Source: Serratia marcescens
Lineage (GTDB): Bacteria > Pseudomonadota > Gammaproteobacteria > Enterobacterales > Enterobacteriaceae
Length of the DNA: 64,000 nucleotides
Direction: 5' to 3'
Assembly (NCBI RefSeq): GCF_029846115.1
Contig: NZ_JARVZZ010000001.1
Coordinates: 2,418,001-2,482,000, forward strand
A program made the position numbers and the translations under genes. The notes below the pieces were generated by a model, which worked only from the letters and a program-made list of their open reading frames with translations, did not search any database and was not told the origin of the DNA. This document shows positions 41,706 through 61,431 of the stretch, piece by piece. Position 1 is the stretch's first letter, and each line of letters starts with the position of its first letter.

Positions 41706-42482
41706 CTAAATGCCGCTGAACCAGTTATAGCCCTGATCCTCCCAATACCCGCCCGGATTGACGTCGCTGACGAAGATCGCGGCGATATGTTTGGCATTTT
41801 TGAACCCCAGCTTGGTGGGCACCCGCAGCCGCAGCGGGTAGCCATAGTCCGCCGGCAGGGCCTTGCCGCCGAAATCCAGTGCCAGGATGGTCTGCGGATG
41901 CAGCGCGGTGGCCATGTCGAGGCTGGAGTAGTAGCGATCGGCGCATTTGAAGCCGACGTAACCGGCATTCAGATCCGCGCCGACGTGCTGCAGAAAGGTG
42001 CGCAGCGGCACGCCGCCCCATTGGCCGATGGCGCTCCAGCCCTCAATGCAGATCAGGCGAGTGATCTGGCTTTGCTGCGGCAGCCGCTGCAGCTGTTCCA
42101 GCGTCCAGGGGGCTTTTTTCTCCACCTTCCCGGCGACCTCAAGCCGGTAGCCGGCGAGATCGATCTCGGGGACGTTGTATTCCGGGTAAAACGCGTTGAA
42201 AGGGAAAGGGTGGGTAATCTGATCGGGCCGGTAAGTTTGCGCCAGCCGCTGGCCGCTGAACAGCCAGGCCTGCACCCGGTCGTTCCAGCGCGACATGGCC
42301 CACAGCACCTTATCCACCCGATCGCCGTCTTGCAGGTTGCAACCGGTGAGCATGGCGATACCGCCCAGCGTCAGGCCGGAACGCAGCATCAGGCGGCGCT
42401 GCAGATTGACCAGCTGCTTTTTTTGGTCCGGTTCCAGTTTTGGCGCGGCTGCCCGCGGCTTTTTCTCATTCATGTTTGCCAC
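41706..42482 (-). CDS. MsrP/YedY-like molybdopterin-dependent oxidoreductase, Tat lipoprotein (cassette A)
   Basis: A 258-aa protein of the sulfite-oxidase/MsrP fold. A twin-arginine-like N-terminus (QRRLMLRSG) leads into a hydrophobic segment ending in a lipobox, LTGC, so it is likely a Tat-exported lipoprotein. The Mo-coordinating cysteine lies in CIEGWSAIG, followed by WGGVPLRTFL, and the C-terminus is NPGGYWEDQGYNWF. The family repairs oxidised methionine or reduces other sulfoxides in the periplasm. It overlaps the cytochrome b gene by 17 bases. The protein is a clear paralogue of the one at 57685-58461. Confidence 0.88.
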   Translation of the reverse strand: MANMNEKKPRAAAPKLEPDQKKQLVNLQRRLMLRSGLTLGGIAMLTGCNLQDGDRVDKVLWAMSRWNDRVQAWLFSGQRLAQTYRPDQITHPFPFNAFYPEYNVPEIDLAGYRLEVAGKVEKKAPWTLEQLQRLPQQSQITRLICIEGWSAIGQWGGVPLRTFLQHVGADLNAGYVGFKCADRYYSSLDMATALHPQTILALDFGGKALPADYGYPLRLRVPTKLGFKNAKHIAAIFVSDVNPGGYWEDQGYNWFSGI

Positions 42483-43071
42483 CCGTTATCATCGCCCACA
42501 GCGTTTTGGGCACGACGATCACCATGAAAACGTGGATCGCCACGAACAGGCCGATGCCGGCCATGGCGAAGAAATGCACGTAGCGCGCAAAATCGAAGCC
42601 GCCGAACAGGGCGACCAATCCCTGCAGCTGAACCGGCTTCCAAATCGCCAGGCCGGACAGCACCAGCAATAGGCCCAGCGCCAGCACGCCGAGGTACATC
42701 AGTTTCTGAATGGCGTTGTAGTGGCCATGCCGGTGGCGCAGGCGCAGCGTCAACGCCAGCCAGATATCCTGCCGCAGCGCGCCGACGCGCAGCGGCAACA
42801 GATCGCGGCGAAAATGGCCGCTGAACAGGCTCCACAGCAAATAGCAGACGGCGTTCAGCGCCAATAGCCACATCACCGCCAAATGCCAACCAATCGCGCC
42901 GCCCAGCCAACCGCCCAGCGTCATCTGCGGCGGAAAGCGGAAATCGAACAGCGGCGAGGCGTTATAGATCTCCCAACCGCTCATGAACATGCACACCATG
43001 GCGAACAGGTTGATCCAATGAGTGATTCGAACCGGCCAGCGATGCACCGGCCGCGACGCGTTGGTTTTCAT
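42466..43071 (-). CDS. Cytochrome b/b6-type membrane subunit (cassette A)
   Basis: A 201-aa inner-membrane protein of the cytochrome b561/Ni-hydrogenase b-type family with four hydrophobic segments. Heme-ligand histidines are expected in VRITHWINLFAM, the WHLAVMWLL helix, and ARYVHFFAMAGIGLFVAIHVFM. It is the likely electron donor to the neighbouring molybdopterin protein, in place of the unrelated MsrQ. It is upstream of and overlaps the oxidoreductase gene. The counterpart in cassette B is at 57063-57674. Confidence 0.9.
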   Translation of the reverse strand: MKTNASRPVHRWPVRITHWINLFAMVCMFMSGWEIYNASPLFDFRFPPQMTLGGWLGGAIGWHLAVMWLLALNAVCYLLWSLFSGHFRRDLLPLRVGALRQDIWLALTLRLRHRHGHYNAIQKLMYLGVLALGLLLVLSGLAIWKPVQLQGLVALFGGFDFARYVHFFAMAGIGLFVAIHVFMVIVVPKTLWAMITGGKHE

Positions 43072-43083
43072 GGCTTTCTCCGG

Positions 43084-43707
43084 TTACATCGGCGGCACGG
43101 TGCCGTCTTTGCCGGCGGAGATGCGGGTGGCGATGCGCTCGCCCTTATCGTTGACGGCGGAGAACAGCACGATGTGCACGCCCGGCTTGAGCAGGCTCAA
43201 ATCGCCCGGATCCAGCGTCACGATCGGCACGTCTTCCGGCACGATGACGGTTTTCTGCTGGTTGCCGTAGGTGACGGTCAGGGTGCGGCCGTTGGATTTC
43301 ACCAGTTTACCGACGGTGCCGTTGGTCATGGTGTCTACTTTGCCGTCGGCGGATTCCCAGGCCGAGTGCCCTTCACCGGTGCCGCGTAGGCTGGCGGCGA
43401 ATACGTGCACCTCCAGCGCTTTGAGCGTGCCGTCCGGCTGCGGCACGGCGGCGGTGCCGATAAAGCTGTCCGGTTTTATGTCGTCCAGCGTGGCTTTGGA
43501 CACGCTGAGCACGTTGGTCTGATTGTTCAGCTTGACGCTGAGTGTCTCGCCCTTGCGATCGGTCAGCTGCAGATTGCCGTCGGCCACCTGGCTGATGGTG
43601 CCGCGCAGCGGCGCGATGACTTTGCCCGGCGTTTGGGCGGCGGCCAGGCCGCTGGACAGCAGCAAGGTGGATAACAGTAAACCGGCTATACGATGACGGG
43701 TAATCAT
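43084..43707 (-). CDS. Periplasmic DUF5666-like protein (cassette A)
   Basis: A 207-aa protein with a signal peptide (MITRHRIAGLLLSTLLLSSGLAAA) and two similar beta-rich modules, one starting RGTISQVADGNLQLTDRKGE and one GTVGKLVKSNGRTLTVTYG. These look like tandem OB-type strands of the DUF5666 type. No function is known. It is the first gene of the divergent operon that includes the cytochrome and oxidoreductase, and sits next to the palindrome that probably binds the response regulator. Confidence 0.75.
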   Translation of the reverse strand: MITRHRIAGLLLSTLLLSSGLAAAQTPGKVIAPLRGTISQVADGNLQLTDRKGETLSVKLNNQTNVLSVSKATLDDIKPDSFIGTAAVPQPDGTLKALEVHVFAASLRGTGEGHSAWESADGKVDTMTNGTVGKLVKSNGRTLTVTYGNQQKTVIVPEDVPIVTLDPGDLSLLKPGVHIVLFSAVNDKGERIATRISAGKDGTVPPM

Positions 43708-43773
43708 AACGTTCTCCTGAAATGAGTTTGCCGGTTAAGCATGGTTGAGCCATTGGGTCAGCGCCATGGCCGT

Positions 43774-43795
43774 TTGATGACATTAATGTCATCAA
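43774..43795. promoter_or_regulatory. Perfect 22-bp palindrome (response-regulator box)
   Basis: TTGATGACATT is followed directly by AATGTCATCAA, a perfect 22-bp inverted repeat between divergent cassette A and its response regulator. The shape (TGACA-type arms) resembles heavy-metal/oxidant response-regulator boxes such as those of CusR/HprR. The regulator starting at 43848 is the likely binder. Confidence 0.75.
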
Positions 43796-43847
43796 GTTTG
43801 TCCGCCGAAGCTGCTAGTATTTTTGCAGACGTAACGAGGTGGCGAGC

Positions 43848-44519
43848 ATGCGAATACTGGTAGTTGAAGACGATATCGGCACAGGGGATTACCTGAAGAA
43901 AGGGTTGGGTGAAGCGGGGTACGGCGTCGATTTGGCGCGCAACGGCACCGACGGGCTGTTTCGCGCGTTGGAGCAGGATTACGACGCGATCGTGCTCGAT
44001 GTGATGCTGCCAGGGCTGGACGGTTGGCAGATCATCGAGGTGCTGCGCAAGAAAAGCGACGTGCCGATTCTGTTTCTCACCGCCCGCGACGGCGTGCAGG
44101 ACCGCATCCACGGCCTGGAGCTGGGCGCGGACGATTATCTGATTAAACCGTTTTCGTTTACCGAGCTGGTGCTGCGTTTGCGCACCTTGCTGCGCCGCGG
44201 GCCGGCGCGCGAAGCCGATCATTACGCCATCGCCGATCTGCAGCTGGACGTGCTGCGCCGCCGGGCGGTGCGCCAGGATCAGGTGATCCCGTTGACCAAC
44301 AAGGAGTTCATGCTGCTGCATCTGCTGGTGCGGCGCGAGGGCGAAGTGCTGTCGCGCACGCAAATAGCCTCTCAGGTGTGGGACATGAATTTTGACAGCG
44401 ACACCAATGTGGTTGACGTGGCCATCAAACGCCTGCGTGCCAAAATAGACCGGCCGTTCGACGTCAAGCTGATCCACAGCGTGCGCGGCATTGGCTATGT
44501 CTGCGAGCCACGCTCGTGA
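43848..44519 (+). CDS. OmpR-family response regulator (CusR/HprR-like), cassette A
   Basis: A 223-aa two-domain response regulator. The receiver begins [19 protein letters not shown] with the phosphoacceptor Asp51 ([11 protein letters not shown]) and Lys in YLIKPFSF; the C-terminal winged helix has [20 protein letters not shown] and [13 protein letters not shown]. This subgroup includes the metal/redox regulators CusR, PcoR and HprR (YedW). E. coli HprR controls msrPQ next to it, which parallels the divergent oxidoreductase here. The ATG at 43848 follows GAGGTGG; it overlaps the kinase start by four bases. Confidence 0.92.
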
Positions 44520-45937
44520 GCGGGCGCACGTCACGTCGGCCGGTGTCGCTGACGCTGCGCACCGCCACGCTGTTCGCACTGGTAGCCGCTTTGGTGGTGA
44601 GCGGAACGGGCGGGTATCTGTATAGCGCCATGCGCCAGGAAATGACGCTGCGCAGCGATCTACAGGTGACCGGGCGCGTAGAATATTTCCGCCATTTGCT
44701 GGGGCAGCGCTTTCCTTTGGCGCGCCTGACCGCCAATAACGGCCTGTTTGAAAACATGCTGGGCAATGAACAGGACGTGCTGATTTTCCAAATTCCGGGA
44801 CAAAAACCGCTCATCAACGTGAATCCGGCCGGGGTGAACCTACCGCCGATCGCGCCGACGCCGGCCGGCCAGGCGCAGACGCTGGCCGCCGTCCGCGGTG
44901 GGGAAACGGCGCAGGGGGTGCCGCTGCGCGCGGCTTCGGCGATGGTGCGCCTGGAAGACGGCGGCCTGTTGCAGATCTCCGCCGCGCACGTGATGGTCAA
45001 CGAACAGAAAATGCTGGCGCGCTACCTGTGGCGCATCGTCGCGGCGGTGGCGGTGGCTTTCCTGCTGATTGCGCTCCTGGGGTATGGGGTCATGCGCCGG
45101 GGATTGAAGCCGTTATGGCGCATGGCGGCGCAGGCGTCGCAGATTGCGCCCAATACGCTGTCGACACGCCTCAGCGAGCAGGGGGCGCCGAAGGAGTTGC
45201 AGCAGCTGATCCGTTCGTTTAATGCGATGCTCGATCGGTTGAATGAAGGCTACCAGCGGCTGACGCAGTTTTCCGCCGATCTGGCCCATGAAATCCGCAC
45301 CCCGGTAGGGGCGTTGATGGGCCAGTGCCAGGTGGCGCTTTACCAGCCCCGCAGCGTGGAAGAGTACGAAACCCTGCTGTCGAACAATATGGATGAGCTG
45401 GAGCGTATTTCCCGCATGGTGGAAAATATCCTGTTCCTGGCGCGCGCCGGCGAGGCGCAGTCTGCGCTGAACTACAGTCGGCTGGATGTGGCGCTGGAGC
45501 TGCGGCGGGTGGCGGATTACTTCGAGGGGCTGGCGGAAGAACGCGGCATCGCGCTGAGCTGCGAAGGGGAAGGCGGGCTGAAGGCGGACGCGATGCTGTT
45601 CCAGCGCGCGTTGAGCAACCTGGTGGCTAACGCAGTGCGTTATGCCGACGAAAACAGCCGGATCGTCCTGCGGGCTGAACGGCGCGCCGATGCCTGGTGG
45701 GTACAGGTTATCAATCAGGGGCCGCCGATCGCGCCGGCACAGCTGGAAAAATTGTTCGATCGCTTTTATCGCGCCGATCCCGCACGCAGCGCTGGCAATC
45801 ATGCCAGTGGGCTGGGGCTGTCTATCGTGCGCGCCATCATGACGCTGCACGGTGGTGAAGTTCGCGCGCAGTGTTCCGTTAGCCGGGGTTCCGCTTGTTT
45901 GACCTTTAGCCTGGTTTTCCCTTCATCAGTTCAATGA
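44516..45937 (+). CDS. Sensor histidine kinase, cassette A
   Basis: A 473-aa two-transmembrane sensor kinase. A first helix ([19 protein letters not shown]), a periplasmic domain of about 130 residues, a second helix ([21 protein letters not shown]), a HAMP domain, the phosphoacceptor H-box [16 protein letters not shown] and an ATPase domain ([32 protein letters not shown]) follow in order. The start is a GTG at 44516 coupled to the response regulator (GTGA). It belongs to the CusS/HprS type, so it probably detects periplasmic metal or oxidant stress (inference). Confidence 0.92.
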
Positions 45938-54063: not shown

Positions 54064-54732
54064 GTGAAACTTGTGCTGATAGGGTTGCTGTGTTTGTCCT
54101 TCCCCTTTACCGCCGCTGCAATCAATGTCGGTACCCTGACGTTTGCCATGGATCAGGATCGCTCATTCACCGCCAAGCGGGTGTTGAATAACAACCGTAG
54201 CGCGCGCCTGTATCAGGTGAGCATTCGCGCCATCGATCGGCCGGGAGAGCGCGAGGTGCGCAGCCGGCCGGCGGATGGCGAGCTGCTGTTTGCGCCGCGC
54301 CAGCTGACGCTGCAGGCCGGGCAGGCGGAGTACTATAAGTTTTTCTACCGCGGGCCGCAGGATAATCGCGAGCGTTATTACCGGGTATCATTTCGCGAAG
54401 TGCCGACCCGATTGTTCGAACCGGGGCCGCGTCGGGGCGCCGGCGTCAACCTGGAGCCGATCGTGGTGATGGACACCATTCTGGTGGTGCGCCCGCGTCA
54501 GGTAAACTTTGCCTATCGGCTCGATACCCAGCGCGGTACGCTCACCAACACCGGCAACACCTATTTCAAGTTCCTGCTCAAGCCGGGCTGCAACAGCACA
54601 GATGAAGAGGGTGTCACCGAATACCTGCGCCCCGGCGATACGCTGACCCATGCCGGTATTCGGCTGAAGGGGCAGAAATTCATTATCTATAACGACAAAT
54701 TTATCAGCGTCGATCGCAGCTGCCTCGATTAA
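54064..54732 (+). CDS. ecpE: Fimbrial chaperone EcpE
   Basis: A 222-aa periplasmic chaperone of the ecp system with a signal peptide (MKLVLIGLLCLSFPFTAAA) and two immunoglobulin-like domains (FKQ-like FFYRGPQDNRERYYRVSFREVP, ILVVRPRQVNFAYRL), ending with a CxnC pair (PGCNST, SCLD). The start is a GTG at 54064 behind GAGG. It is paralogous to EcpB. The final gene of the operon, it is convergent with the cassette B kinase gene, their ends overlapping by four bases. Confidence 0.93.
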   Translation: MKLVLIGLLCLSFPFTAAAINVGTLTFAMDQDRSFTAKRVLNNNRSARLYQVSIRAIDRPGEREVRSRPADGELLFAPRQLTLQAGQAEYYKFFYRGPQDNRERYYRVSFREVPTRLFEPGPRRGAGVNLEPIVVMDTILVVRPRQVNFAYRLDTQRGTLTNTGNTYFKFLLKPGCNSTDEEGVTEYLRPGDTLTHAGIRLKGQKFIIYNDKFISVDRSCLD

Positions 54733-56195
54733 CGCGGCGGAATGGCAAAGCGGAAACAGGCGCCGCTTTGCGCTTGTTCGATCAGCTGAATATCGCTGTC
54801 GTGCAGCTGCAGAATGCGCCGCACGATCATCAAGCCCAGTCCGCCGGAAGGGCGCCGGGCGCCGCTCAGGACAGACGGGCGTACGAACAGATCGGCGCGC
54901 AGCGTCTGCGGAATGCCGGGGCCGCTGTCGCTGACCTGCACCATCACCCGATCGTCCTGCCGCCACAGCCGCACGCCGATGTCTCCGCCGGGCGGCGTAT
55001 GGCGAATGGCGTTGTCCAACAGGTTAGTCAGTACCCGCTCAATCATGCTGAGATCGGCGAACACCGGCGGAATGCCGGGGGGAATGTCGGCGTGCAGCCG
55101 CTGGTTGCGCGCCTCCGCCGCCAGCTCGAACTTTTGGAACACGTCCTGCAACAGCTCGCTGAGGGAAAAAGGCTCTTTCTGCGGTTTCACCACGCCGTAC
55201 TCCAGCCGCGCCAGCTCGAACAGCTCCTGCGCCAGCTTGCCCACCTTGCGGCTCTGCGCCAGCGCGATCTCCAGATAGCGCCGCCGATCGGCTTCGCTCA
55301 GGGTGGCAGCCTTGACCGACAGCGTCTCCAGATAGCCGTGCAGCGAGGTGAGCGGGGTGCGCAGATCGTGCGAGACGTTGGCGATGAACTCACGCCGCAG
55401 CCGATCCTGCTGCGCCAGCGTTTGCCACTGATCGGCAAGGCGCTGCGCCATGCGGTGGAAAGCCTGCTGCAGCTGGCTGACTTCGTCGCGCCCGGCCCGT
55501 ACCGCAGGCAGCGCCGCGTAGGCCTGCACCGCCTCGATGCCGCCGCTGTCCAGCGCGCTGACCTGCCGGGTCAGGCGACGGATAGGGCGCGTCACCCAAT
55601 AAAACGCGAAACCGCCGGCCAGCAGGCTGAACAGCACCATCAGCCCGGAGGTCCACAGCGCCATCCTGACCGCCGAGTTGAACTGGGCGTTGCTGGCCAG
55701 CGCCGTGTACTCTTCGCCGAGCAGCACCACGTACAGATAGCCTTCGATCCGGCCATCGACCTTAAGCGGCGCGACGCTGAACACCTTGCGCCCGTCCGCG
55801 CTGCGCGGATCGTCGCCATACACCGGCATCGGCGCGCCACCGAGCAGCGCCTGCAGCGGCGGCAGCGCGACCCGCTGCCGCTTCAGATGCCCGGCCGGCG
55901 CGGCGTTGCCGATAATCGCGCCCTGTTTGTCGAGAAGGTAAACCTCAACGCTGGGATTCACCGCCATCAGCTGATCGAACAGGGTATGCACCGCCTGCGG
56001 ATCCGGCCCGTTCACCCCCAGCAGCGGGTTGCTGTCGGCAATATGCTGCGCCAGGTTGCCGGACAGGCGCTGGATCACCGCCTGGCTGTACTGGGTGCTG
56101 CTGCGCACCTGCATCCAGCCGGAAAAGGCGCAGCCGATGACGATCAGCAGCGCGAAGATCAGCGTGAGGCGTTGCGCTAACGTAAGGTTTTTCAT
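54729..56195 (-). CDS. Sensor histidine kinase, cassette B
   Basis: A 488-aa two-transmembrane sensor kinase: first helix (LTLIFALLIVIGCAFSGWM), periplasmic domain of about 140 residues, second helix (LMVLFSLLAGGFAFYWV), HAMP, H-box FIANVSHDLRTPLTSLHGYLE, and ATPase domain (LLDNAIRHTPPGGD, GGLGLMIVRRILQLH). It is of the BaeS/ResE-like type. It follows the response regulator at a three-base gap, so the pair is one operon, divergent from the cytochrome/oxidoreductase genes it probably controls. Confidence 0.92.
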   Translation of the reverse strand: MKNLTLAQRLTLIFALLIVIGCAFSGWMQVRSSTQYSQAVIQRLSGNLAQHIADSNPLLGVNGPDPQAVHTLFDQLMAVNPSVEVYLLDKQGAIIGNAAPAGHLKRQRVALPPLQALLGGAPMPVYGDDPRSADGRKVFSVAPLKVDGRIEGYLYVVLLGEEYTALASNAQFNSAVRMALWTSGLMVLFSLLAGGFAFYWVTRPIRRLTRQVSALDSGGIEAVQAYAALPAVRAGRDEVSQLQQAFHRMAQRLADQWQTLAQQDRLRREFIANVSHDLRTPLTSLHGYLETLSVKAATLSEADRRRYLEIALAQSRKVGKLAQELFELARLEYGVVKPQKEPFSLSELLQDVFQKFELAAEARNQRLHADIPPGIPPVFADLSMIERVLTNLLDNAIRHTPPGGDIGVRLWRQDDRVMVQVSDSGPGIPQTLRADLFVRPSVLSGARRPSGGLGLMIVRRILQLHDSDIQLIEQAQSGACFRFAIPPR

Positions 56196-56198
56196 GGC

Positions 56199-56918
56199 TC
56201 ACTCTTGCGGCGCGGCCGCGAATTTATAGCCCATGCCCCACACCGTGAGGATGCGCTCGGGTTCCGCCGGGTTGCGCTCGATCTTGATGCGCAGCCGGTT
56301 GATATGGGTGTTGACGGTGTGCTCATACCCCTCGTGCTGATAGCCCCAAACCTGATTCAACAGGCTCAGGCGTGAGAACACCTGGCCCGGGTGGCGGGCG
56401 AAAAAGTACAGCAGGTCGAATTCGCGCGGCGTCAGCTCGACCGGCTGCTGATGCAGGTGCACTTCGCGGGCGATGGGGTCGATGGTCAGATCGTTGAAGC
56501 TGAGCACGCCAGCGTCCATGCGCAGGTTGCGGCTCATCGCTTCCTGGCGGCGAAACAGCGCCTTGACCCGCGCCACCAGCTCCAGCATGGAGAAGGGCTT
56601 GGCCAGATAGTCGTCGGCACCCAGCTCCAGCCCCAGCACGCGGTGCACCTCGCTGGAGCGCGCGCTGGTGATGATGATTGGCGTGTAGCGCGTCATGGTG
56701 CGCGCTCGGCGGCAAATTTCCAATCCGTCCACGCCCGGCAGCATCAGATCGAGGATCAAGGCATCCCAGCCGCCCTGTTCCAACATCGCCATGCCCCGAT
56801 TGCCGTCGGCGGCGTGGCTGATGGCGTAACCTTCGTCGCGCAGATGCAGTTGCAGCAGCTCGGCGATGTCGCCGTCGTCCTCGACGATCAAAATTCGTTT
56901 TGGCTTGTCCATTCTCAT
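56199..56918 (-). CDS. OmpR-family response regulator, cassette B
   Basis: A 239-aa response regulator: receiver (RILIVEDDGDIAELLQLHL, phosphoacceptor Asp57 in ALILDLMLPG, Lys in YLAKPFSM) and winged-helix output (TPREFDLLYFFARHPGQVFSR, VNTHINRLRIKIE). It is the first gene with the kinase at 54729-56195 and is divergent from the cytochrome b gene at 57063. The ATG at 56916-56918 is taken; another at 56912 is possible. Unlike cassette A I see no clear palindrome in the divergent gap. Confidence 0.9.
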   Translation of the reverse strand: MRMDKPKRILIVEDDGDIAELLQLHLRDEGYAISHAADGNRGMAMLEQGGWDALILDLMLPGVDGLEICRRARTMTRYTPIIITSARSSEVHRVLGLELGADDYLAKPFSMLELVARVKALFRRQEAMSRNLRMDAGVLSFNDLTIDPIAREVHLHQQPVELTPREFDLLYFFARHPGQVFSRLSLLNQVWGYQHEGYEHTVNTHINRLRIKIERNPAEPERILTVWGMGYKFAAAPQE

Positions 56919-57062
56919 TACCGCTGATTGCCCGTTTCTCTCTGAAGTCTACACAACCCCCATCGGCGGAGTTATCACATTTTATTTAACTTTGCGTGAG
57001 GTCTTGGGGAACAAATCCGGCGAATACTTGGCTCATCGCATCGTTAGCTGGCAGGAATCTTT

Positions 57063-57674
57063 ATGAGCCTCACTTTCACTCCGGAACAACGACAGACGGT
57101 GCATCCGCTGTGGCTGCGGTTGACGCACTGGCTGAATGCGCTGGCGATGCTGATCATGGTGACCAGCGGCTGGCGCATCTACAACGCCTCGCCGCTGTTC
57201 AACTTCAGCTTTCTCAATGAGCTGACGCTCGGCGGTTGGCTGGGCGGCGCGCTGCAGTGGCACTTCACCGGCATGTGGCTGTTCGGCGTCAACGGGCTGT
57301 GCTACCTGCTGATCAACCTGGCCAGCGGGCGTTTCAAACGCAAATATTGGCCGCTCAGCCCACGGCAGTTTCTCGCCGATATAGGCGCCGCGTTGCGCGG
57401 CAGGCTGCAACACGCCGACCTGCGCCACTACAACATGGTGCAACGCGTGGCTTATCTGTCGGTGATGATCCTCGGCGTGATGAGCGCGCTGTCCGGGCTG
57501 GTGCTGTGGAAATCGGTGCAGTTTCCGCTGCTGCGCACGCTGCTCGGCGGTTATGAGGCGGCGCGCTATATCCACTTTTTTGCCATGTCGGCGCTGGTGG
57601 CCTTCGTCGCGATTCACCTGGTGATGGTGGCGCTGGTGCCGCGGACGCTGCTGGCCATGCTGCGCGGACGCTAA
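57063..57674 (+). CDS. Cytochrome b/b6-type membrane subunit, cassette B (YedZ1-like)
   Basis: A 203-aa inner-membrane protein with four hydrophobic segments, closely related to the cassette A subunit (compare LRLTHWLNALAML, SGWRIYNASPLFNF, GGWLGGALQWHFTGMWLF and ARYIHFFAMSALVAFVAIHLVM). Conserved histidines in each helix pair are heme-ligand candidates. It would pass quinol electrons to the molybdopterin subunit. It starts 144 bases from the divergent response regulator gene and precedes the oxidoreductase by ten bases. Confidence 0.9.
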   Translation: MSLTFTPEQRQTVHPLWLRLTHWLNALAMLIMVTSGWRIYNASPLFNFSFLNELTLGGWLGGALQWHFTGMWLFGVNGLCYLLINLASGRFKRKYWPLSPRQFLADIGAALRGRLQHADLRHYNMVQRVAYLSVMILGVMSALSGLVLWKSVQFPLLRTLLGGYEAARYIHFFAMSALVAFVAIHLVMVALVPRTLLAMLRGR

Positions 57675-57684
57675 GGAGTGAATG

Positions 57685-58461
57685 ATGGAAAAGGATAAAC
57701 GGATCATGACGATCGGTGAAGGGCAGGCGATCGTCAAAGAAGCGCAGCGGCTGTTGAGCGCGCCTTCGCGCCGCCGCTTTCTGCGCAACGGCCTGACGCT
57801 GGGCGGCATCGCCATGCTCACCGGCTGCGATCTCAGCGATAACGCCAACGTCGAACAGGCGCTGAGCCGCATCTCGCGCTTCAACGATCGGGTACAGGGC
57901 TGGCTGTTCAACGGCGATCGCCTGGCGCCGGTCTACCCGGAATCGATGATCACTCGGCCGTTCCCGTTCAACGCTTTCTACGCCGAGGAGGACGCGCCGG
58001 ACATCAACGGCGACGATTACCGGCTGGAGGTGGCGGGACTGGTGCAGGACAAACGCGCCTGGAGCCTGCCGCAGCTGCACCGCATGGCGCAGGTCAGCCA
58101 GGTGACGCGCCATATTTGCGTCGAGGGCTGGAGCGCCATCGGCAAGTGGGGCGGCGTGCCGTTCGCGACCTTTCTCCAGGCGATTGGCGCGGATCTGAGC
58201 GCCCGCTACGTCAGCTTTACCTGTGCCGACGATTACTACACCAGCATCGACATGGCCACCGCGCTGCACCCGCAGACGATTATCGCGCTGACCTATGACG
58301 GGCAGGTCTTGCCGCGCAAATACGGCTACCCGATGAAGCTGCGCATGCCGACCAAGCTGGGCTACAAGAACCCGAAACACATTCAGGTGATCGAGGTCAC
58401 CAACCGCTTCCCGGGCGGTTACTGGGAAGACCAGGGTTACAACTGGTTTGGCGGCAGCTGA
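57685..58461 (+). CDS. MsrP/YedY1-like molybdopterin-dependent oxidoreductase, Tat lipoprotein (cassette B)
   Basis: A 258-aa protein with twin-arginine motif SRRRFLRNG, lipobox LTGC and the Mo-ligand cysteine in CVEGWSAIG, so it is probably an exported molybdoenzyme lipoprotein. It is clearly paralogous to the cassette A protein (shared LTLGGIAMLTGC, FPFNAFY, ATALHPQTI, GGYWEDQGYNWF). I take the ATG at 57685, six bases after GGAG, over an ATG at 57682. In relatives of this type it reduces methionine sulfoxide in the periplasm, which fits the methionine-rich peptide encoded next (inference). Confidence 0.9.
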   Translation: MEKDKRIMTIGEGQAIVKEAQRLLSAPSRRRFLRNGLTLGGIAMLTGCDLSDNANVEQALSRISRFNDRVQGWLFNGDRLAPVYPESMITRPFPFNAFYAEEDAPDINGDDYRLEVAGLVQDKRAWSLPQLHRMAQVSQVTRHICVEGWSAIGKWGGVPFATFLQAIGADLSARYVSFTCADDYYTSIDMATALHPQTIIALTYDGQVLPRKYGYPMKLRMPTKLGYKNPKHIQVIEVTNRFPGGYWEDQGYNWFGGS

Positions 58462-58520
58462 GGCAGCCACCGGCCATTCTCCGGCACCCCGGTGCCTTTG
58501 ACATGACGGAAGGAAATACC

Positions 58521-58811
58521 ATGAAAAAGTTATTCGCAATGATGATGTGCAGCGCGCTGATGCTGGGCGTGGCCGGCGCCAACGCCGCAGACGGCATGAG
58601 CAAAGACGCGATGAAAAAGGACGGCATGAGCCAGATGTCGCACGACGGCATGGCGAAAGATGGCATGAAGAAAGAGTGCATGGGCAAAGAGTGCATGAAG
58701 AAAGACAAGATGGGCAAAGACGCCATGAAAAAGGATGGCATGGCGAAAGACGGTATGGCCAAAGACGGTATGAAGAAAGACGAAATGAAGAAGGACGCGA
58801 TGGGGCACTAA
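58521..58811 (+). CDS. Methionine-rich MxKDx pentapeptide-repeat periplasmic protein
   Basis: A 96-aa precursor. A signal peptide of 22 residues (ends GANA) is followed by a 74-aa mature part built from about 13 near-identical five-residue units ending in Met (DGMSKDAMKKDGM, then units like AKDGM, KKDGM, GKDAM). Fifteen of the 74 mature residues are Met, with only two Cys (KECM, GKECM). The remainder is almost only Lys, Asp and Gly/Ala. Such peptides form the 'MXKDX' family; similar ones act as sacrificial methionine pools that absorb hypochlorite. The MsrP-like enzyme next to it could recycle the sulfoxides. Confidence 0.9.
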   Translation: MKKLFAMMMCSALMLGVAGANAADGMSKDAMKKDGMSQMSHDGMAKDGMKKECMGKECMKKDKMGKDAMKKDGMAKDGMAKDGMKKDEMKKDAMGH

Positions 58812-58876
58812 GCCGCCGCACCCCGCGGCCGCAAGCGGGCGATCCGCGGCGGCCGTGGGCAACATAAGGAGAGAGG

Positions 58877-59347
58877 ATGATGCTGGCGACATGGCTGCGG
58901 CGCTTTCAGCGCTCGAACGGGGACGTTATCTTTATGCGCGCGGCGCTGGTGGTGATCTTCGCCGCCTTCGGTTACGCCAAGTGGTTTGATTACGAGGCGC
59001 AGGGGCTGGTACCGCTGATCGGCAACAGCCCGCTGCTGAGCTGGATGCATCAGGCGTTCGGCATCCGCGGCGCCAGCTATGCGCTGGGCGTCGCCGAGTG
59101 GAGCTTCGGTTTGCTGCTGCTGGCGGGATTCTGGTCGCGGCGGCTGGGGTTGCTGGGGGCGATCGGTTCGACGGTGACCTACCTGACCACGCTGACGCTG
59201 ATCTTTTCCACGCCGGGTGCCTGGGAGCCTTCCGCCGGCGGTTTCCCGGCCATGGCCGGGGCCACCAGTTTTTTAATCAAGGATCTGGTGTTACTGGCCG
59301 GTTCCCTGGTGCTGCTGAAAGCCGACTTGCCGGCCGAGCAGGCATAA
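58877..59347 (+). CDS. DUF417 (YkgB/RclC-like) membrane protein
   Basis: A 156-aa inner-membrane protein with four hydrophobic segments (ALVVIFAAFGYAKWFDYEAQGLVPLIGNSPLLSW at the start, core AAFGYAKW and EAQGLVPLI). It belongs to the DUF417 family that includes RclC of the E. coli reactive-chlorine-resistance locus. The function is unknown. It follows the methionine-rich peptide gene by 65 bases and belongs to the same cassette. A strong hairpin separates it from the convergent betT. Confidence 0.85.
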   Translation: MMLATWLRRFQRSNGDVIFMRAALVVIFAAFGYAKWFDYEAQGLVPLIGNSPLLSWMHQAFGIRGASYALGVAEWSFGLLLLAGFWSRRLGLLGAIGSTVTYLTTLTLIFSTPGAWEPSAGGFPAMAGATSFLIKDLVLLAGSLVLLKADLPAEQA

Positions 59348-59374
59348 AAAAGGGCGTAGCCTGGCTACGCCCTC
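59345..59374 (-). terminator. Terminator of betT (and of cassette B)
   Basis: AGGGCGTAGC (59351-59360) pairs perfectly with GCTACGCCCT (59364-59373) around CTG. In the minus direction the stem is followed by a run of T (A-run at 59346-59351 on the plus strand), so it serves betT, and it also lies just after the DUF417 stop. Confidence 0.8.
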
Positions 59375-59391
59375 TCGTTATTTATCGACCG

Positions 59392-61431
59392 TCACATATC
59401 CGGGAAGGTCAGGGTGCCCCCCGGCGCTTCGCGATGAATGTGCAGGAAGTTCAGGTGCTTCTCGTACTGGTCGAGGATATCGCCAATCACCTGTTCCTTG
59501 CTGTAGTCCATCAGGTCGTTGCCCTGGGTGCCTTCCATCAGGAAGGTTTCCAGCCGGTAGTAGTGCGACTTGCCGGAGCGGGCGCGGTAGGTGAAGCCCG
59601 GCACCGAGTAGCGCATCGGCCAGATCTGATAGATGAAGTTCTGTTCCTCACCCAGGCGCACCAGCAGCTCCAGGTGGTTCAGGCGTTCGTCTTCGGTCGG
59701 TGGCACTTCGCTGAACTCCACTTTCGCGCCGCGCAGCTCCAGCTCGCGCGCCACGTCCTGCATCGCCGGGCGGCAGACTTTATCCAACATTTTCTGCGTG
59801 TACTGGGTGCCCGGGTAGTTCATCACCCGTGACAGGCGCTGTTTCCAGTTGAGCACGTCGTGGCTGGAGACCGGCACCGGCGCCAGTGTGCTGAGCGCGC
59901 TGGCCTTGCGGTAGTCTTCCACCCGCAGCGATTTATACAGCCCTGCCATCACGAAGAAGATCACGAAGCTGAACGGCAGGCCCATGATCACCGTGGTTTT
60001 CTGCAGCGCCGGCACGCCGTCGGTCATCAGCATGCCGATGGTCAACAGGCCGATGGCCACCGACCAGAAAATCCGCAGCCAGTTCGGCGCATCATTATTG
60101 ATGTCGGCCAGGCGCGAGGTGAAGTTGCCCAGCACCAGCGAGCCGGAGTCCGCCGAGGTGACGTAGAACAGCAGGCCGGTGATGGTGGCCACCGAGGCGC
60201 TGAAGGTGAAGCCGGGGTATTGCGCCAGCAGGCTGTAGAAACCGCGCTCCGGGAACTGCATCACTTCCTGAGCAAACTCGGCGTTGCCGTGAATGATCTG
60301 GTAGAGCGCACTGTTGCCGAAGATAGACAGCCACAGCAGGGTGAACACGAACGGTATAATCAGCGTGCCGACCACGAACTGACGAATGGTGCGCCCGCGC
60401 GAGATGCGCGCCAGGAACAGGCCGACGAACGGCGACCACGCCACCCACCAGGCCCAGAAGAACAGCGTCCAATTGTTCATCCACTCCACCGGCCGATCGA
60501 AGGCGAAGCTGTTGAGCGTCATGCCCATAAAGCGATTGACGTAATCGCCGACGTTGAGCACCAGCGCGTTGAGCAGGAACTCGGTGTCGCCAAAGAACAG
60601 CACGAACAGGATCAGGCCCAGCGCCAGCAGCACGTTCAGCTCGGACAGGATGCGGATGCCCTTGTTGACGCCGGAGGTGACCGAGATGGTGGCCATGATC
60701 ACCGACAGCAGGATCAGCGAGCCCTGCACCGTCAGGTTTTCCGGGATTTCGAACAGCACCTTGAGGCCGTAGTTGAGTTGCACCACGCCGATGCCCAGCG
60801 TGGTGGCGATGCCGAAGATGGTGCCGAGCACCGCGGCGATGTCCACGCTGTGGCCGATCGGCCCGTTGATGCGCTTACCGAAAATGGGGTACAACGCCGA
60901 GCGGATGGTCAGCGGCAGATTGTAGCGATAGCTGAAGTAGCCGAGGGCGATGCCCATCAGCGCATACATCGACCAGCCGGTCAGGCCGTAGTGGAACAGC
61001 GTCCAGACCATCGCCTGGCGCGCGGCTTCCAGCGTTTGCGCGTCGCCTTCCGGCGGCATCATGTACTGGGTCACCGGCTCGGCGACCGAGAAGAACATCA
61101 GGTCGATGCCGATGCCGGCGGCGAACAGCATCGCCGCCCAGCTCATCAGGCTGAACTCCGGCTTGGACTGCTCCGGCCCGAGCTTGATCGAACCGAAGCG
61201 CGAAGCGGCGATAAACACCACGAACACGATGTACAGCGTCGCCGCCAGCAGGTAGTACCAACCGAAGGTGGTCGACACCCAATTCAGCGTGCGGGTGATC
61301 CACTGCCCGGAGAAGTCGGTGAAAAAGATGGTCATCAGCGAGAAGGCCAGGATCAGCCCTGCCGAGGTGAAGAAAACCACAGGGTTGAGGCGGTCCTGCT
61401 GCGGTTTGGAGGAGGTTTCGTGGGTTGTCAT
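59392..61431 (-). CDS. betT: High-affinity choline transporter BetT (BCCT family)
   Basis: A 679-aa inner-membrane symporter (E. coli BetT 677) of the betaine/choline/carnitine family with 12 transmembrane segments (WAAMLFAAGIGIDLMFFSVAEP and WWVAWSPFVGLFLARISRGRTIRQF are family blocks) and a long cytoplasmic C-terminal tail involved in osmosensing. It takes up choline for glycine-betaine synthesis. I chose the ATG at 61429-61431, six bases after AGAGG, over 61437 (adjacent to the site) and a 58-codon longer frame. It is divergent from betI. Confidence 0.96.
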   Translation of the reverse strand: MTTHETSSKPQQDRLNPVVFFTSAGLILAFSLMTIFFTDFSGQWITRTLNWVSTTFGWYYLLAATLYIVFVVFIAASRFGSIKLGPEQSKPEFSLMSWAAMLFAAGIGIDLMFFSVAEPVTQYMMPPEGDAQTLEAARQAMVWTLFHYGLTGWSMYALMGIALGYFSYRYNLPLTIRSALYPIFGKRINGPIGHSVDIAAVLGTIFGIATTLGIGVVQLNYGLKVLFEIPENLTVQGSLILLSVIMATISVTSGVNKGIRILSELNVLLALGLILFVLFFGDTEFLLNALVLNVGDYVNRFMGMTLNSFAFDRPVEWMNNWTLFFWAWWVAWSPFVGLFLARISRGRTIRQFVVGTLIIPFVFTLLWLSIFGNSALYQIIHGNAEFAQEVMQFPERGFYSLLAQYPGFTFSASVATITGLLFYVTSADSGSLVLGNFTSRLADINNDAPNWLRIFWSVAIGLLTIGMLMTDGVPALQKTTVIMGLPFSFVIFFVMAGLYKSLRVEDYRKASALSTLAPVPVSSHDVLNWKQRLSRVMNYPGTQYTQKMLDKVCRPAMQDVARELELRGAKVEFSEVPPTEDERLNHLELLVRLGEEQNFIYQIWPMRYSVPGFTYRARSGKSHYYRLETFLMEGTQGNDLMDYSKEQVIGDILDQYEKHLNFLHIHREAPGGTLTFPDM

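Follow-up and report, generated by a model that had tools for sequence, protein, structure and literature searches.

Gene content of the locus

A 64,000-nucleotide stretch of a Serratia marcescens genome (contig NZ_JARVZZ010000001.1, positions 2,418,001 to 2,482,000 of the forward strand; hereafter the window) contains a locus, termed cassette B, in which a two-component system (TCS) is transcribed divergently from genes for a cytochrome b561, an MsrP/YedY-like molybdoenzyme, a methionine-rich MXKDX peptide and a DUF417 protein. All of these genes had been claimed in an earlier, sequence-only reading of the window, and every one of them proved to be present and intact. Comparison with nearest relatives likewise places the window in Serratia. 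The minus strand encodes a 488-residue OrhK-type sensor histidine kinase (54729–56195; HAMP, HisKA and HATPase domains in Pfam) and an OrhR-type response regulator of the OmpR family (56199–56918; Pfam). On the plus strand, a putative operator between the divergent genes (56975–56999) is followed by the cytochrome b561-type membrane subunit (57063–57674; PF01292, 88.6 bits), presumed to be the electron donor of the molybdoenzyme, then by the molybdoenzyme itself (57682–58461), the secreted peptide of 96 residues (58521–58811) and the DUF417 membrane protein, a distant relative of RclC (58877–59347; PF04224, 125 bits). A terminator search returned one intrinsic-terminator-like hairpin between DUF417 and the convergent gene betT (59351–59373, plus strand), which is weak on its own, since shuffled sequence gave a mean of 1.9. 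The effector operon is flanked by the TCS on one side and by betT on the other, with no extracytoplasmic function (ECF) sigma factor or NrsF anti-sigma gene adjoining it.

The molybdoenzyme belongs to the YedY-type PF00174 superfamily (106 bits) and carries the sequences RRRFL and LTGC, which we take to be a twin-arginine translocation (Tat) motif and a lipobox, respectively. Residues R30, R31, C49 and C146 were invariant in all 20 aligned relatives, and C146 aligned with a cysteine of the solved chain 1xdq, presumably E. coli YedY with its cofactor ligand. The protein is MsrP-like, yet it fell short of the MsrP equivalog NF003767 (79.9 bits against a cut-off of 207), and a canonical MsrP is encoded at a separate place in the same genome (C1:403574, 515 bits). 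Five of 369 genomes of the class, including this one, encoded this molybdoenzyme at an E value of 1e-60, a number too small for statistics.

The peptide scored 97.8 bits against the NCBIfam model TIGR02953 ('pentapeptide MXKDX repeat protein', cut-off 41). Its start lies more plausibly at the second ATG (58521) than at 58503, because GGAAGGA stands just upstream and the E. coli relatives begin with MKK. The 15 methionines previously counted in a mature peptide of 74 residues were reproduced with cleavage after ANA, the signal peptide and the site being judged by eye; a computed cut at residue 27 leaves 75 residues, again with 15 methionines, the 74-residue cut lying one residue later. Two cysteines and two histidines are also present. 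Among 60 genomes around the window, 24 (this one included, all of one genus) encoded a member of the MXKDX family, which argues that the peptide is a conserved gene rather than a chance reading frame.

The regulator scored 157.9 bits against an HprR cut-off of 353, placing the pair outside the HprSR type, and the heavy-metal models of the CusRS/CopRS type (TIGR01386 and TIGR01387) were likewise missed (148.3 against 292.55 bits and 171.4 against 279.2 bits). A copper- or metal-sensing TCS was rejected for cassette B on these NCBIfam cut-offs, the TCS of a neighbouring cassette A being the one of metal type. The pair is of OrhK/OrhR type: kinase identity was 48% to the chromosomal homologue of E. 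coli ATCC 25922 and 51% to a homologue on an E. coli plasmid, with corresponding values of 66% and 69% for the regulator. In the periplasmic part of the kinase, M77 was invariant in 20 of 20 aligned sequences, and all 26 distinct pattern matches had methionine at this position.

In uropathogenic E. coli (UPEC), OrhK/OrhR directly activates a divergent operon, c3566–c3568, encoding a cytochrome b, an MsrP-like enzyme and a Met-rich peptide (Gu and colleagues, PMC8550376; statements from this and the other cited papers refer to excerpts of their text). The regulator binds a promoter fragment with a potential site TCACA-N15-TGTGA; the operon is induced by tert-butyl hydroperoxide and in macrophages, the latter response being lowered by an NADPH oxidase inhibitor; mutants in the TCS and in the enzyme are hydroperoxide-sensitive; and the chromosomal genes are described as UPEC-associated (PMC8550376). 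Using the ATCC 25922 locus as a stand-in for CFT073 on the basis of gene order and operator, we found the Serratia locus to share the gene order, the divergent TCS and an inverted-repeat operator upstream of the cytochrome b gene, i.e. an arrangement of OrhKR type. Identities to the E. coli chromosomal and plasmid homologues were 64–68% for the molybdoenzyme and 48–51% for the peptide, and 63% for the cytochrome, which was compared with the plasmid copy only, the chromosomal one being annotated as frameshifted. The two operons differ downstream, that of UPEC continuing into a toxin operon (PMC8550376) and that of Serratia being followed by DUF417 or betT. With the same genes, order and operator described in UPEC, the TCS-controlled enterobacterial version of the set is already in print (PMC8550376) and is not new, contrary to what had been supposed for this locus.

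The OrhR operator and the genes it adjoins

The operator of the window, TCACATTTTATTTAACTTTGCGTGA, differs from the published inverted repeat in a single base (CGTGA for TGTGA) and lies 63 bases ahead of the cytochrome b start, while that of E. coli ATCC 25922, TCACATTTTTTTTAAACTCTTGTGA, has exactly the published form. None of 100 shuffles matched it at up to three mismatches, and the genome itself held a single copy at that threshold. Among the 60 genomes, the operator (at most one mismatch) occurred in 25, namely precisely the 24 with an MXKDX peptide plus one Sodalis genome (G033).

A wider set of 81 loci was assembled from the best 80 of 590 confirmed candidate stretches (more exist), obtained by molybdoenzyme alignment in species-level genomes, together with an E. 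coli plasmid locus; four loci are common to this and the 60-genome set (L033 = G011, L036 = G665, L057 = G763, L045 = G435). Cytochrome b and molybdoenzyme genes were found in all 81. In 72 of them, a gene within 4 kb encoded a peptide with four or more MxK[DE] units; relaxing the criteria for the nine misses raised the number to 76 by recovering peptides that length and start rules had at first excluded (L085, L089, L101, L110). One miss, L044, is cut off by a contig end, and the remaining four (L053, L093, L104, L107) showed no peptide beside the cytochrome b and molybdoenzyme genes even under the relaxed criteria. Methionine made up 16–25% of the repeat part of the 72 peptides counted, 53 of which lacked cysteine and 22 both cysteine and histidine. 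An orthologous regulator was adjacent in 26 loci (23 of them with a full kinase frame; in L043, L048 and L071 only the regulator gave one, the kinase end of the last two being truncated or partial). A sigma or anti-sigma gene lay within 18 loci, and 37 had neither. Genes for MsrA were present in nine loci and for MsrB in five, as raw counts.

Searching upstream of cytochrome b with the 25-base pattern TCACRWWTWRTTTAAVHYHNCGTGA separated these groups. Every one of the 26 TCS-linked loci had the operator at zero to two mismatches, while the best match in each of the 18 sigma- or anti-sigma-linked loci had at least seven. The remaining 37 loci divided into 21 (20 Pseudomonas and one Citrobacter, L046) at zero to one mismatch and 16 at six or more, so that the distribution over all 81 has a gap between two and six. 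We consider this operator the strongest new evidence obtained here: it appears to be a marker that tells TCS-wired loci (at most two mismatches) from sigma-wired ones (at least six). A scan of the class at up to two mismatches gave nine hits in 9 of 369 genomes, against 17 hits in 16 genomes for a reversed control pattern, so a lone two-mismatch hit means nothing. The window was the only match with fewer than two mismatches; among the nine hits, it and that of G223 adjoin this TCS, and the reading frames at four others (L134, L135, L137, L139) showed no such regulator. Within the G223 family, 3 of 119 genomes matched at one mismatch, all with one sequence, and the one such region looked at (L147) contained no relevant gene.

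In the molybdoenzyme tree, two changes were counted between 48 TCS-or-operator rows and 18 sigma rows (16 rows with neither label are excluded, and the row window_A is a long branch), and a single clade was retained (p-AU 0.377). As the single clade was not rejected, we make no claim about the number of switches between the two modes of control. One locus filed under Chryseobacterium (Bacteroidota; L047) clustered with Enterobacter in this tree and probably comes from a contaminated assembly.

If the operator marks control by OrhR, Pseudomonas genomes in which no TCS adjoins it should have the regulator gene at another place. This was checked in nine of the 20, and the regulator was found elsewhere in all nine at 74–75% identity (next-best listed matches, 37–42%); the same search located it in an Edwardsiella genome at 81%. 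The kinase adjoined the regulator in all ten, and in the nine Pseudomonas genomes an operator lay on the divergent side of the regulator (20–21 of the 25 letters of a narrower pattern). In four Pseudomonas regions, the genes divergent from the TCS were those of MsrB and MsrA, identified by Pfam in two (L129, L130) and by tblastn in two (L131, L132); in L129 they are separated by a gene for a DsbD-like/redoxin protein. Both gene sets also occur in loci of other lineages: a Telmatospirillum metagenome-assembled genome (L108) has two operators, one ahead of cytochrome b and the other ahead of msrB-msrA, a Pseudorhodoferax locus (L101) has in a row the TCS, operator, cytochrome b, molybdoenzyme, peptide, msrA and msrB, and a Bordetella locus (L071) has the same set with msrB preceding msrA.

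A less biased tally was made from the regulator itself, searched for in 257 genomes of the order and 340 of the class, which yielded 12 distinct orthologues, that of the window included. Six adjoin cytochrome b, molybdoenzyme and peptide genes with an operator at zero or one mismatch, and two adjoin genes for MsrB, a DsbD-like protein and MsrA with operators at two and three mismatches.

Sodalis (G033, L145) offers what amounts to a natural experiment: the switch is the same, yet its neighbours are other reductases and a different peptide. Its regulator and kinase are 84% and 61% identical to those of the window, and the TCS is divergent, across an operator with one mismatch, from a gene for a secreted Met-rich peptide of another kind (L145:5614–5907, minus strand; 97 residues, 12 methionines, ten of them past residue 24, with MMMK runs). 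The binomial tail of its methionine share is about 1.6e-5 at an assumed background of 2.5%, and the protein database yielded a single further relative of this peptide. Beyond the kinase come the genes for MsrA, a DsbD-like protein and MsrB, with no further operator at up to three mismatches before msrB. MXKDX had no match genome-wide. The search for a molybdoenzyme, which covered 12 kb of sequence and not the remainder of the genome, found none.

A proposed rechargeable methionine sink and its alternatives

Taken together, gene content, the conserved cysteine, co-occurrence and an operator common to msrB/msrA make it very likely that cassette B is a methionine-sulfoxide system. The part of the sequence-only reading that concerned a methionine-rich peptide and a reductase of methionine-sulfoxide type is thereby upheld; the operator shared with periplasmic msrB/msrA would supply a reason for this function at the level of a regulon. 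The explanation that we consider best, and hold with good though incomplete confidence, is a TCS-induced, rechargeable methionine sink with its repair enzyme under control of OrhK/OrhR type. The TCS would sense a periplasmic oxidant, or the effect of an oxidant on methionine, and the phosphorylated regulator would bind the operator at 56975–56999 and turn on the cytochrome b561, the molybdoenzyme and the Met-rich peptide (plus DUF417 in this lineage). The roughly 15 methionines of the peptide would then be oxidised to sulfoxide in place of those of other envelope proteins, and the molybdoenzyme, with electrons from the cytochrome, would reduce them again, so that the peptide could serve repeatedly as an oxidant sink. 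Ordinary envelope proteins may be further substrates of the enzyme.

Several observations weigh against this explanation. No sigma-70 promoter was matched in 56900–59420. With a canonical MsrP elsewhere in the genome, repair alone would not require this locus. The operator pattern was derived partly from loci later counted with it, and in Edwardsiella (L133, L045), where the TCS and the operon lie apart, a recognisable operator was found at neither place. For four of the 12 regulator orthologues, no genes of either effector set lay within about 6 kb, and the best operator matches there had 4, 4, 2 and more than 4 mismatches. Furthermore, we know of no experiment in an enterobacterium that shows an MXKDX peptide being oxidised or recycled, and the stress assays excerpted from the UPEC study cover mutants of c3564–c3567, a single mutant of the peptide gene c3568 not being reported there (PMC8550376).

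The sequence-only reading had gone further and proposed a system specific for reactive chlorine, with DUF417 acting like RclC. In Azospira suillum, the SigF/NrsF-YedY1-YedZ1-MrpX system (Melnyk 2015) is reported by citing papers (PMC4623255, PMC8315932, PMC8550376) to have a Met-rich peptide sink and to scavenge hypochlorite; as in Serratia, a Met-rich periplasmic peptide accompanies a YedYZ-type pair, but control is by sigma and anti-sigma factors instead of a TCS and operator. Brucella BcrS/AbcS-BcrXQP combines an MXKDX peptide with an MsrQP-like pair and is both induced by hypochlorous acid (HOCl) and protective against it (PMC8315932), again under sigma/anti-sigma control unlike that of Serratia. 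The UPEC peptide and reductase are also said to scavenge HOCl, a statement resting on the Azospira paper (PMC9600549), and DUF417 is the Pfam family that includes RclC. However, the OrhKR system itself was assayed with tert-butyl hydroperoxide and, by means of an inhibitor, with a host-derived oxidant, and its authors contrast it with MsrPQ, which protects against chlorine species (PMC8550376). Hypochlorite is therefore not established as the oxidant of the TCS-type system, and naming the system after it goes too far, because the nearest tested relative answers to hydroperoxide. DUF417, for its part, was absent from the wider set and falls far below the RclC cut-off, with a real RclC elsewhere in the genome. 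On balance, we regard a chlorine-specific system as unlikely, if far from negligible.

E. coli MsrPQ with HprSR resembles the Serratia locus as a periplasmic methionine-sulfoxide repair system under a TCS, with the difference that the Serratia enzyme and regulator lie below the MsrP and HprR cut-offs; to our knowledge, MsrPQ has no accompanying peptide. The molybdoenzyme of cassette B might similarly do no more than mend ordinary envelope proteins, with the peptide a minor partner (decoy, chaperone or charge factor). The hydroperoxide phenotypes in UPEC do belong to the TCS and enzyme genes (PMC8550376), and four loci of the wider set lacked a detected peptide. Nevertheless, a peptide gene lies near the molybdoenzyme in 76 of 81 loci, methionine makes up 16–25% of the repeat part in the peptides counted, and in Sodalis a Met-rich peptide of another kind stands behind the operator though the adjacent reductases are MsrA and MsrB, all of which makes repair as the sole function improbable.

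Methionine-rich periplasmic proteins often bind Cu(I), and the cysteines and histidines of the Serratia peptide could serve the same end. That the peptide binds copper and the locus confers copper tolerance under a metal-sensing TCS is very improbable all the same, despite the overlap of MsrPQ repair with copper stress in E. coli (PMC9302797), given that the TCS of cassette B falls below the heavy-metal cut-offs passed by that of cassette A, that most peptides of the wider set lack cysteine, and that the genes sharing the operator encode methionine sulfoxide reductases.

Returning to the methionine sink, the finding of one TCS and operator beside exchangeable reductases and peptides supports the view of a methionine-redox regulon. 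In its fullest form, which we advance tentatively as a serious contender, OrhK/OrhR would be a portable master switch, with the molybdoenzyme and MXKDX peptide, the exported MsrB/DsbD-like/MsrA set or the unrelated Met-rich peptide of Sodalis exchangeable behind the 25-base operator, and the kinase would read methionine oxidation through Met77. The peptide sink would then be an antioxidant buffer that has been reinvented repeatedly, and not a helper bound to one enzyme. While the gene set is known from UPEC, Azospira and Brucella, the regulon view was not found in the open-access literature searched, which yielded no paper that connects msrB/msrA with an OrhKR-type TCS or with its operator, and none on the Serratia locus; such an absence is weak evidence. 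In two perchlorate-reduction islands, MsrA and MsrB, predicted to be periplasmic, occur among oxidative-stress genes of the yedYZ-mrpX kind, with sigF/nrsF named as the regulator; unlike for the Pseudomonas msrB/msrA genes, no OrhKR operator is described in the excerpts of that paper (PMC4623255).

DUF417, solitary TCSs, cassette A and plasmid copies

DUF417 shares its Pfam family with RclC, and to that extent the sequence-only description of it as an RclC relative stands, but it is weak evidence for reactive-chlorine defence. Its score against the RclC equivalog NF040476 was 89.3 bits (cut-off 275), and a real RclC is encoded elsewhere in the same genome (332 bits). The family is large, many of the named matches among the best 120 of 2610 being from Pseudomonas. 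Of 24 Serratia genomes, 16 have DUF417 between the peptide gene and betT; the remaining eight showed none in the stretch examined, and in all of these betT follows. Overall, betT was found downstream in 23 of the 24 loci. The wider set of 81 loci, which includes the Serratia loci L032 and L033, contained no copy of DUF417. An RclC-type function was rejected on the low score, the patchy distribution and the separate RclC. DUF417 looks like a lineage-specific addition, judging from this distribution, and is possibly co-transcribed with the operon.

Four genomes (G030, G773, G713, G691; loci L165, L166, L167 and L168, respectively) carry an OrhKR-type TCS alone with degraded operators, seemingly in one chromosomal neighbourhood. 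This common neighbourhood suggests that the effectors may have been lost in a single event, leaving a sensor whose targets seem gone.

About 9 kb from cassette B, cassette A (41706–45937) encodes paralogues of the molybdoenzyme and the cytochrome b, with 60% and 50% identity, respectively, together with a secreted-looking protein of 207 residues that has no Pfam or NCBIfam match; no Met-rich peptide was seen among its listed frames. Its divergent TCS passes the heavy-metal (CusRS/CopRS-type) cut-offs at 478.8 and 331 bits.

The module also travels on plasmids. A five-gene form distinct from the chromosomal one (e.g. L031) was found in 73 of 5426 E. coli genomes, plasmid-borne in every case, with 72 of the 73 covering at least 80% of the query at 95% identity or more, and with 76 plasmid places in the E. 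coli set. In PLSDB, 134 of 72,556 records encode the molybdoenzyme, and 77 of those are predicted to be conjugative.

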